DNA from: an uncultured Kordiimonas sp.
Lineage (GTDB): Bacteria; Pseudomonadota; Alphaproteobacteria; Sphingomonadales; Kordiimonadaceae
Direction of reading: 5' to 3'
NCBI GenBank assembly: GCA_947503625.1
Contig: CANNEK010000001.1
Span: 1,172,152 to 1,236,151, forward strand
Length of the DNA stretch: 64,000 nucleotides
The translations under genes and the position numbers were made by a program. Each line of letters begins with the position of its first letter. The stretch's first letter is position 1. Below the pieces are notes generated by a model, which saw nothing but the letters and a program-made list of their open reading frames with translations, did no database searches and was not told the origin of the DNA. Shown here piece after piece: positions 1 to 4,372 of the stretch.

Positions 1-92
1 TCAGATGGTTCAAGCCCGCCACGCATTTTGTCTGCCGCCTTGAATAGGTCGGCAGCAAAGTCGAGGTCAGCTTTGCGAGTGTCTGTTGCCAT
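1..92 (-). CDS. hsdM: Type I restriction-modification DNA methylase (HsdM), N-terminal fragment cut by window edge
   Basis: Reading the minus strand from the ATG at 92 gives about 30 residues before the window ends. They contain the stretch FAADLFKAADKMRGGLEPS, which matches the conserved N-terminus of HsdM subunits (usual pattern: LWKAADKLRG followed by an acidic/Ser residue and the YKHVVLGLIFLKY block, which would lie outside). HsdM methylates adenine within the HsdMS or HsdRMS complex in the cytoplasm. The gene is divergent from the unknown pair starting at 260 and lies in the tRNA-Ser island, a common place for defence genes. Only the start is visible, so the presence of hsdS and hsdR is inferred. 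Confidence 0.7.
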   Translation of the reverse strand, partial: MATDTRKADLDFAADLFKAADKMRGGLEPS

Positions 93-259
93 TCAATCTT
101 TACTTTCTAATGCTCTGTGTTGACCCAATCAGTAGCAGAATAATTGTTGCTATAACAATTGATAGTGCTGTCTAGCATTAGAGTCTATGAACACATACAA
201 CTTGCGCGGCACGCCCGTGAACCCCATATTTGATAAGTATTAACTTGTTGGGGCAAGAT
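93..259. promoter_or_regulatory. Divergent intergenic region between hsdM and the unknown island operon
   Basis: This 167-base gap must hold the promoters of the left-going hsdM and the right-going 260..2302 operon. It is AT-rich around 130-180, with the element TTGTTGCTATAACAATTG near 145-162 that forms a near-palindrome (CAATTG/TTGTT-type half-sites). No assigned regulator; the two HTH proteins at 2384 and 2610 are candidates. Confidence 0.3.
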
Positions 260-1480
260 ATGGCTTCATTCAGCGGTTTCATTCGAAAATCACCTGCTCA
301 ACGATTACGAGCATTCCTTGAAACTCGGGGAGTTGACGCGCCTGTGGATTTCAATTGGACAAGCGAGGGGCGCGGCACCGCTTTGGTGCTATCCATTGAG
401 GACATGTTAGGGGCATTGCCGGATCGCCAGCAGGATGCAGTGAAAGCGGAATTGGACTTGCTCGCCAGCCTCTCTGACAATCACGGGTTGATTGGGGCAG
501 AGCAGATTTGCGCTGGTCAAGGAATCGACATTGAGCGCCTAGTGGGTATCCAAGATATTCTTCTATTTCTCGCGACGAAGCACCCAAAGGCAATTGATCG
601 GATTTCCGTGCAGGCGTCCCTGGTTCGCCGAAATGGTGGCAGGAACTGGTCAACTTTTCAATTCGATAATGATGGCAGACCTTGGGCGCTTGATAGCCAG
701 GCAGCGCGCGATGCATTCTTGAGCGAGACTGTCGCAATTCTTGATCTGCCAACCCACCGTAAACGTGTTGCTGATTGGTATGAGGCCGTCCGCTCGCACC
801 CTATCACGGGAGAAGAAACAACACTGACACAAGCGACAATCTATGTGGAGGAAAGGGCCGAGAGCGAGTTGGGTTTTGGACAATCTAAAACCCTGGAGAG
901 GCATGTGGTGCCGAAGGTACTGGAAGTCGGGGTTGCCTGCGACGCCAAAGCCCGCATTGTCGAAGTATGCGCAAAGGGCGGCAAGAAGGTGCGTGATCAG
1001 TATGCAGAAGCGTTCTCTCGGCATTTCGCGCCACACTCTGAACCGCCTATCGAGGTGCCGCGCAGGGATGTCGTGCTGGATGTTCTACGAAAAGAACCAG
1101 ATTTCCTAGTCGAACCCGCTGACGGCATCGAACGAATTGAAGTTTCCTCGCTCGATTTTCACGTCGCAGGTGGCGGTATCGCAAGAGTGGAGAGACGCGG
1201 CGAGGACGAAACGATCTACCAATTCCTTAATCGGCGTTTTGGCAGCCACTCCCCTTTGCAGGCGGCAGGGTGGCAAATCTTGGCAGCAACCCTTCGGATA
1301 GTTCTAGCACCAAGAGATGGGCAGCGTCGTCGGACGCTAACCATAACCTTAAGAGCGCCGAACACCACTACCCTGCCGAACAAAACCGAAAAGGACCGCC
1401 AATTCGTATTATCTCTCCTCGAGAGATGGGGAATGGTCGCGTCGCCTCCGAATGATTCGGACGTAGTGGAGCCGTCCTAA
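260..1480 (+). CDS. Unknown island protein, 406 aa (first gene of a two-gene unit)
   Basis: I do not recognise this family. The open frame begins at a TTG (230), but the ATG at 260 preceded by GGGGCAAG is a more natural start, giving MASFSGFIRKSPAQRLRAFL. The protein is soluble, with no signal peptide or membrane segment, mixed charge, a helix-rich N-terminal half and a C-terminal third rich in Arg and Thr ending in an acidic tail. No nuclease, helicase, ATPase or methylase motif was seen. It is followed with no gap by the next gene (TAA then ATG), so the two are very likely translationally coupled and act together. Its position between a type I methylase and the integrase makes a defence, regulatory or element-maintenance role possible, but that is inference. 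Confidence 0.7.
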   Translation: MASFSGFIRKSPAQRLRAFLETRGVDAPVDFNWTSEGRGTALVLSIEDMLGALPDRQQDAVKAELDLLASLSDNHGLIGAEQICAGQGIDIERLVGIQDILLFLATKHPKAIDRISVQASLVRRNGGRNWSTFQFDNDGRPWALDSQAARDAFLSETVAILDLPTHRKRVADWYEAVRSHPITGEETTLTQATIYVEERAESELGFGQSKTLERHVVPKVLEVGVACDAKARIVEVCAKGGKKVRDQYAEAFSRHFAPHSEPPIEVPRRDVVLDVLRKEPDFLVEPADGIERIEVSSLDFHVAGGGIARVERRGEDETIYQFLNRRFGSHSPLQAAGWQILAATLRIVLAPRDGQRRRTLTITLRAPNTTTLPNKTEKDRQFVLSLLERWGMVASPPNDSDVVEPS

Positions 1481-2302
1481 ATGTCTGCTGTTGGCCTACT
1501 TTGCGAGATTATTGCGCAATCGGGGAAGGCATCAGCGTCGGCATATGCCGAGCACCCAGATTTTGAAACGCTATCGTGCAGCGGATTTATTCGCAACGCG
1601 GGGGTGATGCAATCCGTTACGTGCCTGGATTGCGATATCGTACATGATGCCGAAATCGTACATGAAAACGGGCGATACGGCTATTTCTGCCCGGAGATTG
1701 GTTTTGTTGCCATACCGCGCGCAATGATCGAAGCGATCAAGCCGGACTTTCCAACCATCGTTGCGGCCCTGGCGGATAGCTTCCATTGCAAGCGCCGCAA
1801 ACCCACCGAGCTGCGAGGCGCAACATGGCGCATCGGATTGGTGGTCTATGAGGCTAGTGATGTATCGCTCTATCTGCAGCCCACGCTGCAAAGTGAGCAG
1901 GACGTTGCGAAACTCATGGCTGCTCTGTCCCAAGAGGTCAGGAGTCAACACCGTTTGATCCTGACGGCGAGTGGCACGTTGACCATACCCGATGCTAAGA
2001 CAGCGTTGTTGTCCGATGTCGTCGAAATCCAAACGGTTCAGCCAGCCTTTGCGGTGCTCACAGACCCACGAGACATCGTAGAGGCCCCGAGAAAAAGGCC
2101 TGGCGGCGCACCAAATCGATACAAAGAAATGCTTGGCTCGCTCATAGCGGCCCGAAAGCAAGACGGCAGCGCCTTGCCGGGGCGCAACGAGGAAGCGAAA
2201 GCAATTTTGGGCATCCTCAGTGACCAGAAAAGCAGCAAGAAACTGCCCTCTCTGTCAACGATTCAGCGCTATCTGACTGAAATGCGAAATTCTGAATCAT
2301 AA
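1481..2302 (+). CDS. Unknown island protein with Cys cluster, 273 aa (second gene of the unit)
   Basis: I do not recognise this family. The ATG directly abuts the stop of the upstream gene, which indicates coupling. Around residues 48-70 there is a CxxC pair (CLDCD) and, about 20 residues later, another Cys in YFCPE, which may form a small metal-binding knuckle with nearby His residues. The C-terminal 70 residues are basic, beginning with RKRPGGAPNRY and ending in a helical segment (LSTIQRYLTEM), as expected for a DNA-binding tail. No enzyme motif was seen. Both this protein and its partner contain an SGFIR tetrad-plus segment near the N-terminus; this may be coincidence. It is followed by an 81-base gap and the small HTH gene. 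Confidence 0.7.
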   Translation: MSAVGLLCEIIAQSGKASASAYAEHPDFETLSCSGFIRNAGVMQSVTCLDCDIVHDAEIVHENGRYGYFCPEIGFVAIPRAMIEAIKPDFPTIVAALADSFHCKRRKPTELRGATWRIGLVVYEASDVSLYLQPTLQSEQDVAKLMAALSQEVRSQHRLILTASGTLTIPDAKTALLSDVVEIQTVQPAFAVLTDPRDIVEAPRKRPGGAPNRYKEMLGSLIAARKQDGSALPGRNEEAKAILGILSDQKSSKKLPSLSTIQRYLTEMRNSES

Positions 2303-2383: not shown

Positions 2384-2599
2384 ATGACGGACACGACCGA
2401 ACTTCTCACTCACACTGCACAAATCCTTGCGGTCTCGCCAAGCGAAGCCGCACGCCTCTGCGGTATTGGGCGCACCACGCTTTACACTGCGCTTTCCTCT
2501 GGTGAACTCAGGAGCGCCAAGATCGGGACACGTCGCTTAATCACTATCGACGCCCTGCGCGATTGGCTGGAAAGGAACGAGCAGCCAACAGAAGCGTAA
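2384..2599 (+). CDS. Small helix-turn-helix DNA-binding protein (excisionase-like), 71 aa
   Basis: A short protein of the HTH_17/excisionase type. The segment SPSEAARLCGIGRTTLYTAL is the helix-turn-helix, followed by the wing (GELRSAKIGTRRLI) and a final DWLERN helix, the standard layout of MerR-fold Xis proteins. The start is supported by GGAG eight bases upstream of the ATG. It lies upstream of a second HTH protein and the tyrosine recombinase, so a role as recombination directionality factor or repressor of the integration module is likely. That role is inferred from context. Confidence 0.75.
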   Translation: MTDTTELLTHTAQILAVSPSEAARLCGIGRTTLYTALSSGELRSAKIGTRRLITIDALRDWLERNEQPTEA

Positions 2600-2609
2600 A
2601 GGGCGCGAT

Positions 2610-3035
2610 ATGCCAAAGAAAGCGCGCCTGAGCCGGATCAAATCATTCCGCACCTACACAATCGATGAAGCGGCAGAAGTTACCGACGTCTCGCCGCGTA
2701 CCATTCGTAATTGGGCGGCGGATGGCTTGCGCATACTGGATAACGAACGCCCCGCCTTGGTTCGCGGTGACGATCTGCGCGATTTCATCAAGGAAAAAAG
2801 GCAGAACAGAAAGATCAAGACCGCCCCGGATGAATTTTACTGCGTTCGTTGCAGACGACCTCGACACGCCGCCGGGGGCATTGCAGATTGCATTTTCAAG
2901 GGCACGCGCGTCACGCTTACTGCGCTCTGCGAGGTCTGCGAAACAGTGATGACCAAGCCGATTGTGGAGGCTCGTATTCCCAAGATTGCGCGAACCCTCG
3001 ACCTCACAATTAAGCGGCATGAAACGACATTATAA
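2610..3035 (+). CDS. HTH protein with C-terminal zinc ribbon, 141 aa
   Basis: The N-terminal 60 residues form a MerR-like helix-turn-helix (TIDEAAEVTDVSPRTIRNWA, then a wing and the helix DDLRDFIKEK). The C-terminal half carries two CxxC pairs (YCVRC and CEVCE, about 34 residues apart), a classical zinc-ribbon spacing. Ten bases separate it from the preceding HTH gene, so both probably share a transcript with the integrase downstream. Proteins of this layout accompany tyrosine recombinases in alphaproteobacterial islands; regulation of int or binding at att sites is inferred. Confidence 0.65.
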   Translation: MPKKARLSRIKSFRTYTIDEAAEVTDVSPRTIRNWAADGLRILDNERPALVRGDDLRDFIKEKRQNRKIKTAPDEFYCVRCRRPRHAAGGIADCIFKGTRVTLTALCEVCETVMTKPIVEARIPKIARTLDLTIKRHETTL

Positions 3036-3128: not shown

Positions 3129-4157
3129 ATGAGCAAGCGTCCCATTGAGAAGAACGAGCGTACAAAACGCCAGTTTTTGCACTATCGGAAGTATGCACGC
3201 CAGCTGTCGGAGAAAACGCTCGACCGCGAAATAGCCGCACTGGAGAGGTTCGACGTTTGGAACGGACGCAAGGACTTCACGCGCTTTCATATCGAATGGG
3301 CGATGGGTTTTCGCACCCATCTGGAACAAGCCAAAGGCGCAACCGGCAAACCTCTTGGAAAGTCTACCACACGGGCCATTCTGACGGTGCTCCGAGAGTT
3401 CGTGCTCTGGCTTTCTCAGCAAGACGGCTTTCGCAGTCGGATCAAACCGTCGGATGCCGATTACTTTAATCTCTCGCACCGTGACGAAGCGGAAGCCCGC
3501 GCTGCTCCGCCACGTCCAGCACCAAGCGTTAACCAAGCCAAGCGCGCATTGTCTATGATGCCGGAAGGTGACGCCCGTACGCTGCGCGACAAGGCGATAT
3601 TTGCTCTGCTGTGTCTGACCGGCATTCGTGTGAACGCGCTGATCTCGCTGAGAGTAAAGCATGTAGACCTAGTCGAAAGGTCAGTGACGCAAAATCCGCG
3701 TGAAGTGGCCACGAAATCCGGCAAAAGCATCGACACATTCTTCGCAAAAGGTTTTGAAGATGCCGAGTCGGCACTGGCGTCATGGATCGAACACTTGGAC
3801 GAAGTCGCACTCTACGGCCCGGACGATCCACTCTTTCCGGCCACTGCCATCGCTGCCCGGGCGAATAATGGTTTCAAGGCGACCGGCTTCGCGCGCCGAC
3901 CCTGGAAGAGTACCGAACCCACTCGCAAGATCGTCAATGGTGCTTTCGCCAAGGCGGGGCTGCCCCAGTTCGGGCCTCATGCTTTCCGGCACATGCTGGC
4001 ACGCCATGCGGCAAACACCGCGACTTCTGTGGCCGAGTTGGTCGCCAATTCCCAAAATCTTGGTCACACCGATGTTCTGACCACTTTACGCAGCTACGGC
4101 CAGATCAGCCGGGAACGCCAGCGTGAACTGATCACGGGCCTGAAGCCCGATGCATGA
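3129..4157 (+). CDS. int: Tyrosine recombinase / tRNA-Ser island integrase, 342 aa
   Basis: Site-specific tyrosine recombinase. The N-terminal SAM-like core-binding domain spans roughly residues 15-125 and the catalytic domain 140-335. Catalytic residues are recognisable: Arg in LTGIRVNAL, Lys in TKSGKS, the HxxR box in PHAFRHML, a His in LGHTDVLTT and the nucleophilic Tyr in RSYGQIS. A strong ribosome site (AAGGAGG) lies just ahead of the ATG. The gene ends 125 bases from the 3' end of a tRNA-Ser gene, the usual arrangement for an integrase that uses the tRNA 3' end as attachment site. It therefore probably catalyses integration and excision of the island that continues left of the window. 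Confidence 0.9.
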   Translation: MSKRPIEKNERTKRQFLHYRKYARQLSEKTLDREIAALERFDVWNGRKDFTRFHIEWAMGFRTHLEQAKGATGKPLGKSTTRAILTVLREFVLWLSQQDGFRSRIKPSDADYFNLSHRDEAEARAAPPRPAPSVNQAKRALSMMPEGDARTLRDKAIFALLCLTGIRVNALISLRVKHVDLVERSVTQNPREVATKSGKSIDTFFAKGFEDAESALASWIEHLDEVALYGPDDPLFPATAIAARANNGFKATGFARRPWKSTEPTRKIVNGAFAKAGLPQFGPHAFRHMLARHAANTATSVAELVANSQNLGHTDVLTTLRSYGQISRERQRELITGLKPDA

Positions 4158-4256: not shown

Positions 4257-4282
4257 TAGAACAATGGCGTAATGAAGGTGGA

Positions 4283-4310
4283 TGGCGGAGACGAAGGGAT
4301 TCGAACCCTC
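4283..4310. other. Predicted island attachment site (att core) in the tRNA-Ser 3' end
   Basis: Tyrosine recombinases of this kind usually use the T arm and acceptor stem of a tRNA as the crossover core. The integrase sits directly next to this tRNA's 3' end, so the core should lie here. The matching copy would be outside the window to the left, so this is inference from layout only. Confidence 0.45.
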
Positions 4311-4372
4311 GATACCGTTGCCAGTATACTCCCTTAGCAGGGGAGCGCTTTCGACCACTCAGCCACGTCTCC
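4283..4372 (-). tRNA. tRNA-Ser (anticodon GCU)
   Basis: The minus strand folds as a 90-nt type II tRNA. The acceptor stem pairs GGAGACG (4372-4366) with CGTCTCC (4293-4287), followed by discriminator G and an encoded CCA at 4285-4283. The D arm is GGCTGAGTGG-like, the anticodon GCT lies at 4338-4336 in the loop CTGCTAA, there is a long variable arm as required for tRNA-Ser, and the T arm contains GGTTCGAATCC. It reads AGC/AGU serine codons. The 3' end points toward the integrase, so this gene is the likely attachment site of the island. Confidence 0.97.

Follow-up and report, generated by a model that had tools for sequence, protein, structure and literature searches.

famA-famB, a conserved gene pair heading the integration core of tRNA-targeting elements and the early operon of temperate phages in Alphaproteobacteria

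RexA of phage lambda, RdgC and Iml3/Chl4 have one fold in common, and both RexA and RdgC are dimers that bind DNA non-specifically (PMC11077077). Lambda RexA is also able to bias the lysogeny switch (PMC11077077), and prophage pairs of the RexAB type defend Pseudomonas putida against phage, the partner protein there being a membrane effector (PMC12894663). The gene pair described here, famA-famB, is likewise a two-gene unit near a temperate-phage immunity region, as are lambda RexA/RexB and the RexAB of P. putida prophage P1, and the predicted structure of FamA resembles the DNA-binding fold of the RdgC/Iml3 type. There are also differences from the Rex pairs. Lambda rexA and rexB lie on the cI strand, whereas famA-famB belongs to an early or excision operon divergent from the repressor. 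RexB is a four-helix membrane protein, whereas the model of FamB is that of a soluble protein built of DNA-binding-type domains. FamA, unlike RexA, has a predicted helical N-terminal domain of about 125 residues.

The pair lies in a window of 64,000 nucleotides from an uncultured Kordiimonas sp. (contig CANNEK010000001.1, positions 1,172,152 to 1,236,151), the relevant features of which are given in Table 1. The original prediction, made from the sequence of this stretch, had described two open reading frames with a stop codon directly followed by a start codon, and this was exact in lengths and positions: the famA TAA at 1478-1480 abuts the famB ATG at 1481. The surroundings it had described, a divergent type I methylase on one side and an integrase module on the other, were also as found, with hsdM running on the minus strand from about position 92 and two HTH_17 genes and a tyrosine recombinase adjoining the pair. 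Its statement that neither protein has a known domain was correct for Pfam and NCBIfam, in which famA and famB have no match, and for PADLOC, in which no model matches at E ≤ 1. In PHROGs, FamA has a full-length match to a phage family that has no name (phrog_37634, E 3.5e-23). A literature search of open-licence papers found no published description of the pair or of the element family. The pair is previously unnamed, and none of the profile libraries that we searched has a name for it.

Table 1 Features of the famA-famB region (window coordinates)
Feature	Position	Strand	Description
hsdM, 5' end	1..92	-	cargo side, divergent to famA
Promoter of the five-gene core	202..230	+	TTGCGC - 17 bp - CATATT; 58-59 bp upstream of the famA start codon
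famA	260..1480	+	406 aa; helical N-terminal domain (1-124) and alpha/beta part (127-398); candidate DNA clamp
famB	1481..2302	+	273 aa; winged helix, zinc-type cluster, middle domain, basic C-terminal HTH
HTH_17 excisionase-type protein, core gene 3	2384..2599	+	71 aa; Pfam HTH_17 1.1e-12, TIGR01764 excise
HTH_17 + Cys ribbon (HTH_17/Zn) protein, core gene 4	2610..3035	+	141 aa; Pfam HTH_17 3.9e-7
Tyrosine recombinase, core gene 5	3129..4157	+	342 aa; Pfam Phage_integrase 8.7e-15
att repeat, right end	4282..4296	.	ATGGCGGAGACGAAG, the tRNA-Ser(GCT) 3' end; 15 bp
tRNA-Ser(GCT), integration site	4283..4372	-	ARAGORN

We examined the association of the two genes in 160 loci, 80 from a scan of IMG/VR and 80 from a scan of GTDB genomes. 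By a local profile search, famB is immediately 3' of famA and on the same strand in 158/160 loci (80/80 among the viral ones), and the start-to-stop distance, mostly -8 to -26 bases, shows that the genes usually overlap. The two loci without famB are L135, which stops close to where its contig ends, and L144, where the frame beginning at the expected famB start is only 128 aa long. Similarly, among 289 genomes sampled from the class, all those with a strong famA match have famB adjacent or fused. The fused form, a single protein of 742 or 767 aa with the famA portion ahead of that of famB, is found in genomes G236 and G280, and these natural fusions argue for physical association of FamA and FamB. 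The pairwise distances of the two genes are correlated (r 0.80, 151 gene pairs), with 0/500 permutations reaching this value. Purifying selection acts on both genes: compared with close relatives, pN/pS is 0.24-0.28 for famA and 0.43-0.52 for famB, and dN/dS in the less diverged pairs is about 0.08 and about 0.15-0.17, respectively. The start MASFSGF or MGSFSGF, conserved in 11/11, also counts toward the pair being more than a chance arrangement. famA-famB is a real partnership that is conserved, co-diverging, sometimes fused and placed at the head of an operon. The finding of one protein without the other in most genomes, which the original prediction had named as evidence against a unit, is clearly not what the pairing and the fusions indicate.

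The Kordiimonas genome has a single copy of famA, and the gene is absent from 28/28 other genomes of the family; it is therefore sporadic, as expected of a mobile gene. In the phylum, 25/299 sampled genomes have a famA match, some of them several copies. A weak match in genome G097 (L008/L013) was set aside as it lies in a housekeeping region.

We compared the AlphaFold2 model of FamA (pLDDT 82) with known structures. The best match was CENP-N (Foldseek E 2.3e-4, VIA-align Z 8.4), followed in VIA-align by CENP-L (Z 7.8), Iml3 (Z 7.5) and RdgC (Z 6.9). RexA itself is not in this list, the top of which is CENP-N/L, Iml3 and RdgC, and as the range of Z 6.9-8.4 comes from one model with pLDDT 82, the fold match is a moderate one. 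Nor does FamA match the RexA family phrog_12654 in PHROGs, to which lambda RexA matches at 6e-163. The match to RdgC aligns FamA 127-404 with RdgC 2-306 over 207 residues and concerns the monomer fold only; in a search of viral models with FamA, a phage RdgC-type protein was at rank 3. FamA and RdgC (PF04381, phrog_724) are further alike in accompanying phage or recombination genes. However, FamA has an extra N-terminal domain and a nearly constant partner in FamB, and the two have no significant sequence or profile similarity. FamA has no Pfam match to PF04381, no RdgC match was found among 41 members, and profile-profile comparisons of famA with RdgC were not significant (hhalign P 0.19 and 0.53), both runs selecting one common beta-alpha unit. 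Since no profile link exists, we claim a resemblance in fold and not membership of the RdgC family. Searches of PDB sequences with the famA and famB profiles gave matches at chance level, and 18 diverse famA proteins, when aligned, proved too diverged for a pattern scan. With pI values of 5.9 for FamA and 6.2 for FamB, the two proteins are on the whole slightly acidic, which we counted against the reading of FamA as a DNA clamp directed by FamB.

CENP-N and CENP-L (Chl4/Iml3), the best structural matches of FamA, are eukaryotic chromatin proteins of the inner kinetochore without sequence similarity to it, and the common fold does not show common function or descent. It is conceivable that FamA is a phage and mobile-element counterpart of CENP-N/CENP-L, a clamp in which a helical domain precedes the shared fold and which works with a dedicated DNA-binding partner that can be fused to it, but we regard this as distinctly improbable. 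Were it true, the pair would represent a new class of two-protein DNA-loading complex, one that either drives excision and early replication or excludes phage in a Rex-like manner with no membrane effector.

The AlphaFold2 model of FamB (pLDDT 93) is that of a soluble alpha/beta protein with an N-terminal winged helix, a Cys3His cluster, a middle domain and a basic C-terminal HTH in this order. The cysteine cluster and basic C-terminus that had been noted in one of the two proteins are confirmed by the residues C48, C51, H55 and C70, identical in 10/10 close relatives, and by the C-terminal HTH. The middle domain has weak matches, mostly to restriction-endonuclease-like folds (VC1899, Can2, NucS, Bax1 and RPB5; Z 3.8-5.9). 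The D...(D/E)xK triad of PD-(D/E)XK nucleases is conserved neither in 10 close nor in 60 wider FamB members, and because this catalytic motif is missing, we rejected the possibility that FamB is an active nuclease. Judging from the model, FamB looks like a winged helix followed by a zinc site, a degenerate nuclease fold and an HTH. No membrane segment was found, the top hydropathy over 19 residues being 1.25.

These models bear on the possibility that famA-famB is an exclusion pair of the Rex kind, in which FamA would sense phage DNA intermediates as RexA does and FamB, as an effector replacing RexB, would block superinfecting phage through its DNA-binding, nuclease-like body. The FamA model resembles the fold reported for RexA, prophage RexAB-type systems are proven phage defence (PMC12894663), and the element bears restriction-modification, SIR2_2 and DUF4268 genes. 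On the other hand, FamB has neither a membrane segment nor a conserved nuclease motif, the pair runs with early or excision genes and not with a repressor gene as lambda rexA/rexB does, PADLOC gave no match, and the pair does not vary along with the cargo of the element. We consider it unlikely that the pair functions in this way.

The Kordiimonas pair belongs to an element of 13.6 kb (C1:1162809-1176447, or L002:7658 to window position 4296) bounded by a 15-bp repeat, an exact second copy of ATGGCGGAGACGAAG being present 13.6 kb leftward at genome position C1:1162809 (L002:7658). Its cargo to the left of the window consists of the rest of hsdM, hsdS, SIR2_2, DUF4268, hsdR and a second integrase with an Arm-DNA-binding domain (P4-type). 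In two congeners the site is empty, the left flank being contiguous with the tRNA; only about 30 bp of the left flank aligns. With an integrase at one end, a tRNA 3'-end repeat at the other and an empty site in relatives, this is a tRNA-targeting integrative element.

The two integrases of the element are of different kinds, the P4-type enzyme being encoded immediately within the left att repeat and the one at the right being XerC-like, and the left-end integrase is present in the same layout in L125, L128, L130 and L132. Within the cargo, SIR2_2 and DUF4268 are inserted between hsdS and hsdR (L002:12167-14202), a position occupied by SIR2_2 in L125 and by an FRG-domain protein in L132.

Ten close relatives with 57-70% identity were found in Rhodobacteraceae, Pseudovibrio, Rhizobiaceae and similar bacteria. 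Those on contigs of sufficient length have the common core famA-famB-HTH_17-HTH_17/Zn-tyrosine recombinase, and an HTH gene is next after the pair in those with enough sequence. Wherever a tRNA was found beyond the integrase, in 8/10 relatives as well as in the Kordiimonas genome, it is a tRNA-Ser (gct, cga or tga), and 14-bp repeats equivalent to the Kordiimonas att repeat were present in L125, L128 and L132. Type I restriction-modification cargo is carried by the Kordiimonas element (with SIR2_2 and DUF4268), L125 (with SIR2_2), L132 (with FRG), L129 and L130; L128 and L131 have type III-like cargo, L124 has a methylase remnant, and no restriction-modification cargo is visible in L126, L127 and L133. 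The defence cargo thus changes from element to element, whereas the pair, the excisionase-like genes and the integrase stay constant. The original prediction had seen in the pair the best candidate for an undescribed system, at a kind of site where new defence systems often turn up. An undescribed and tightly coupled pair in a restriction-modification island is indeed what we found; its assignment to the defence cargo is unsupported.

Related tyrosine recombinases, mostly with an HTH/Zn gene and without famA-famB, were also seen in other Alphaproteobacteria (L260, L263, L264, L266, L268 and L272). Their neighbours are restriction loci of the type I or methylase kind and, in L272, a gene read by eye as QatC-like. 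Their position beside restriction-modification or defence loci is as in the Kordiimonas element, and the integrase with its HTH/Zn gene may be a module that defence islands in general use for integration. Elements of the Kordiimonas type have, in addition to such a module, the pair with its promoter, an integration target in tRNA-Ser and another integrase at the opposite end. Since the module exists without the pair, the pair is not required for integration as such.

A promoter of the form TTGNNN-17-CATATT, with small variations, is present at equal distance from famA in 11/11 elements of this type, compared with a chance expectation of 1.4% per 130-nt window. Bases beside its -10 box are conserved as well, and the DNA upstream of it, on the cargo side, differs among the 11 elements. 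A common operator upstream of famA was sought among the relatives and nothing beyond the promoter was found; a perfect inverted repeat, AATTGTTGCTATAACAATT, at 142-160 between hsdM and famA was not found in the relatives. The conserved promoter and the bases by its -10 box, the first position of famA and famB in the operon, the two DNA-binding-type domains in the FamB model and the ability of lambda RexA to bias the lysogeny switch (PMC11077077) are all consistent with a transcription switch, with FamB acting on the excision or early operon as an activator or antirepressor, FamA as its DNA-bound cofactor and regulation of integrase and excisionase as the main role. Against this, no common operator was found upstream of famA apart from the promoter, and a separate XRE repressor and HTH_17 proteins are already present; we find it doubtful.

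More distant relatives point to temperate phages. An ImmA/IrrE peptidase is near the pair in 58/80 viral loci (divergent in 46 of the 58), an XRE regulator in 40/80 (divergent in 40/40) and a large serine recombinase in 32/80, and a DEAD/ResIII helicase is downstream on the same strand in 48/80; these counts are lower bounds because the contigs are short. AAA_24 and AAA_25 ATPases and an HTH_17 gene are likewise downstream on the same strand, as are SSB-like, exonuclease-like and RuvC-like proteins that were read by eye and have no Pfam match. In the fetched parts of seven contigs, PHROGs identified the terminase large subunit in 6, head protease in 6, portal in 5 and tape measure in 4, indicating that these are temperate phages; models of the HK97-type capsid and the PF04860 portal matched in only 2/20 viral contigs. 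The distant pairs therefore head an early replication and recombination operon of alphaproteobacterial temperate phages, divergent from the XRE repressor and ImmA. A mobilizable plasmid carries one relative, and there too the downstream gene overlaps directly. Relatives thus adjoin integration or replication genes, whether they belong to temperate phages, to integrative elements or to a plasmid. A constant link of this kind to phage or plasmid functions had been named at the outset as an argument against the original proposal, and it is largely what we observe.

As the first early genes in phages, and carried by several kinds of mobile element including a mobilizable plasmid, the pair could also be an early anti-defence module (antirestriction or anti-RecBCD-like) that shields element DNA on entering a new host. 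This seems very unlikely, as the Kordiimonas element brings its own restriction-modification system and the pair has no similarity to a known antirestriction family.

The constancy of the pair with excisionase-like genes and integrase, its own promoter, its early-operon position and its phage distribution suggest that it belongs to the machinery of the element, and this is more likely than a new defence system. As to mechanism, we tentatively favor, at a little below an even chance, the explanation that FamA acts as a DNA clamp under the guidance of FamB and assists excision and early DNA metabolism. By its fold, FamA would be a dimeric and largely sequence-independent clamp of the RdgC/RexA/CENP-N-L type, which FamB may bind and direct or load onto element DNA. 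The complex would be made on induction of the element or its new entry into a cell, where it may protect or organise element DNA, and it may tune host recombination as RdgC does or the lysogeny switch as RexA does, favoring excision and early DNA metabolism. If this fold-based reading holds, FamA represents a new branch of the RexA/RdgC/CENP-N-L group of DNA clamps, and the pair, widespread yet nameless in the profile libraries searched, offers a tractable way to study how temperate phages of Alphaproteobacteria, and islands that carry restriction genes, exit the chromosome. It is also a warning that genes adjoining defence systems in islands can be element machinery and not new defence genes.

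In tblastn searches, FamA and FamB had no match among 50,697 records of phages and 72,556 of plasmids, and a central famA relative gave no phage and one plasmid. The fused famA-famB forms are at an equivalent site, with a serine recombinase next to them and the early operon downstream. A small conserved protein of about 80 aa (MAKG..GTHHVVPN..GGWDVRRGG) is encoded ahead of famA in at least 16 loci of the phage type, examples being those at L011:11552-11794, L012:10269-10505 and L045:3433-3687.
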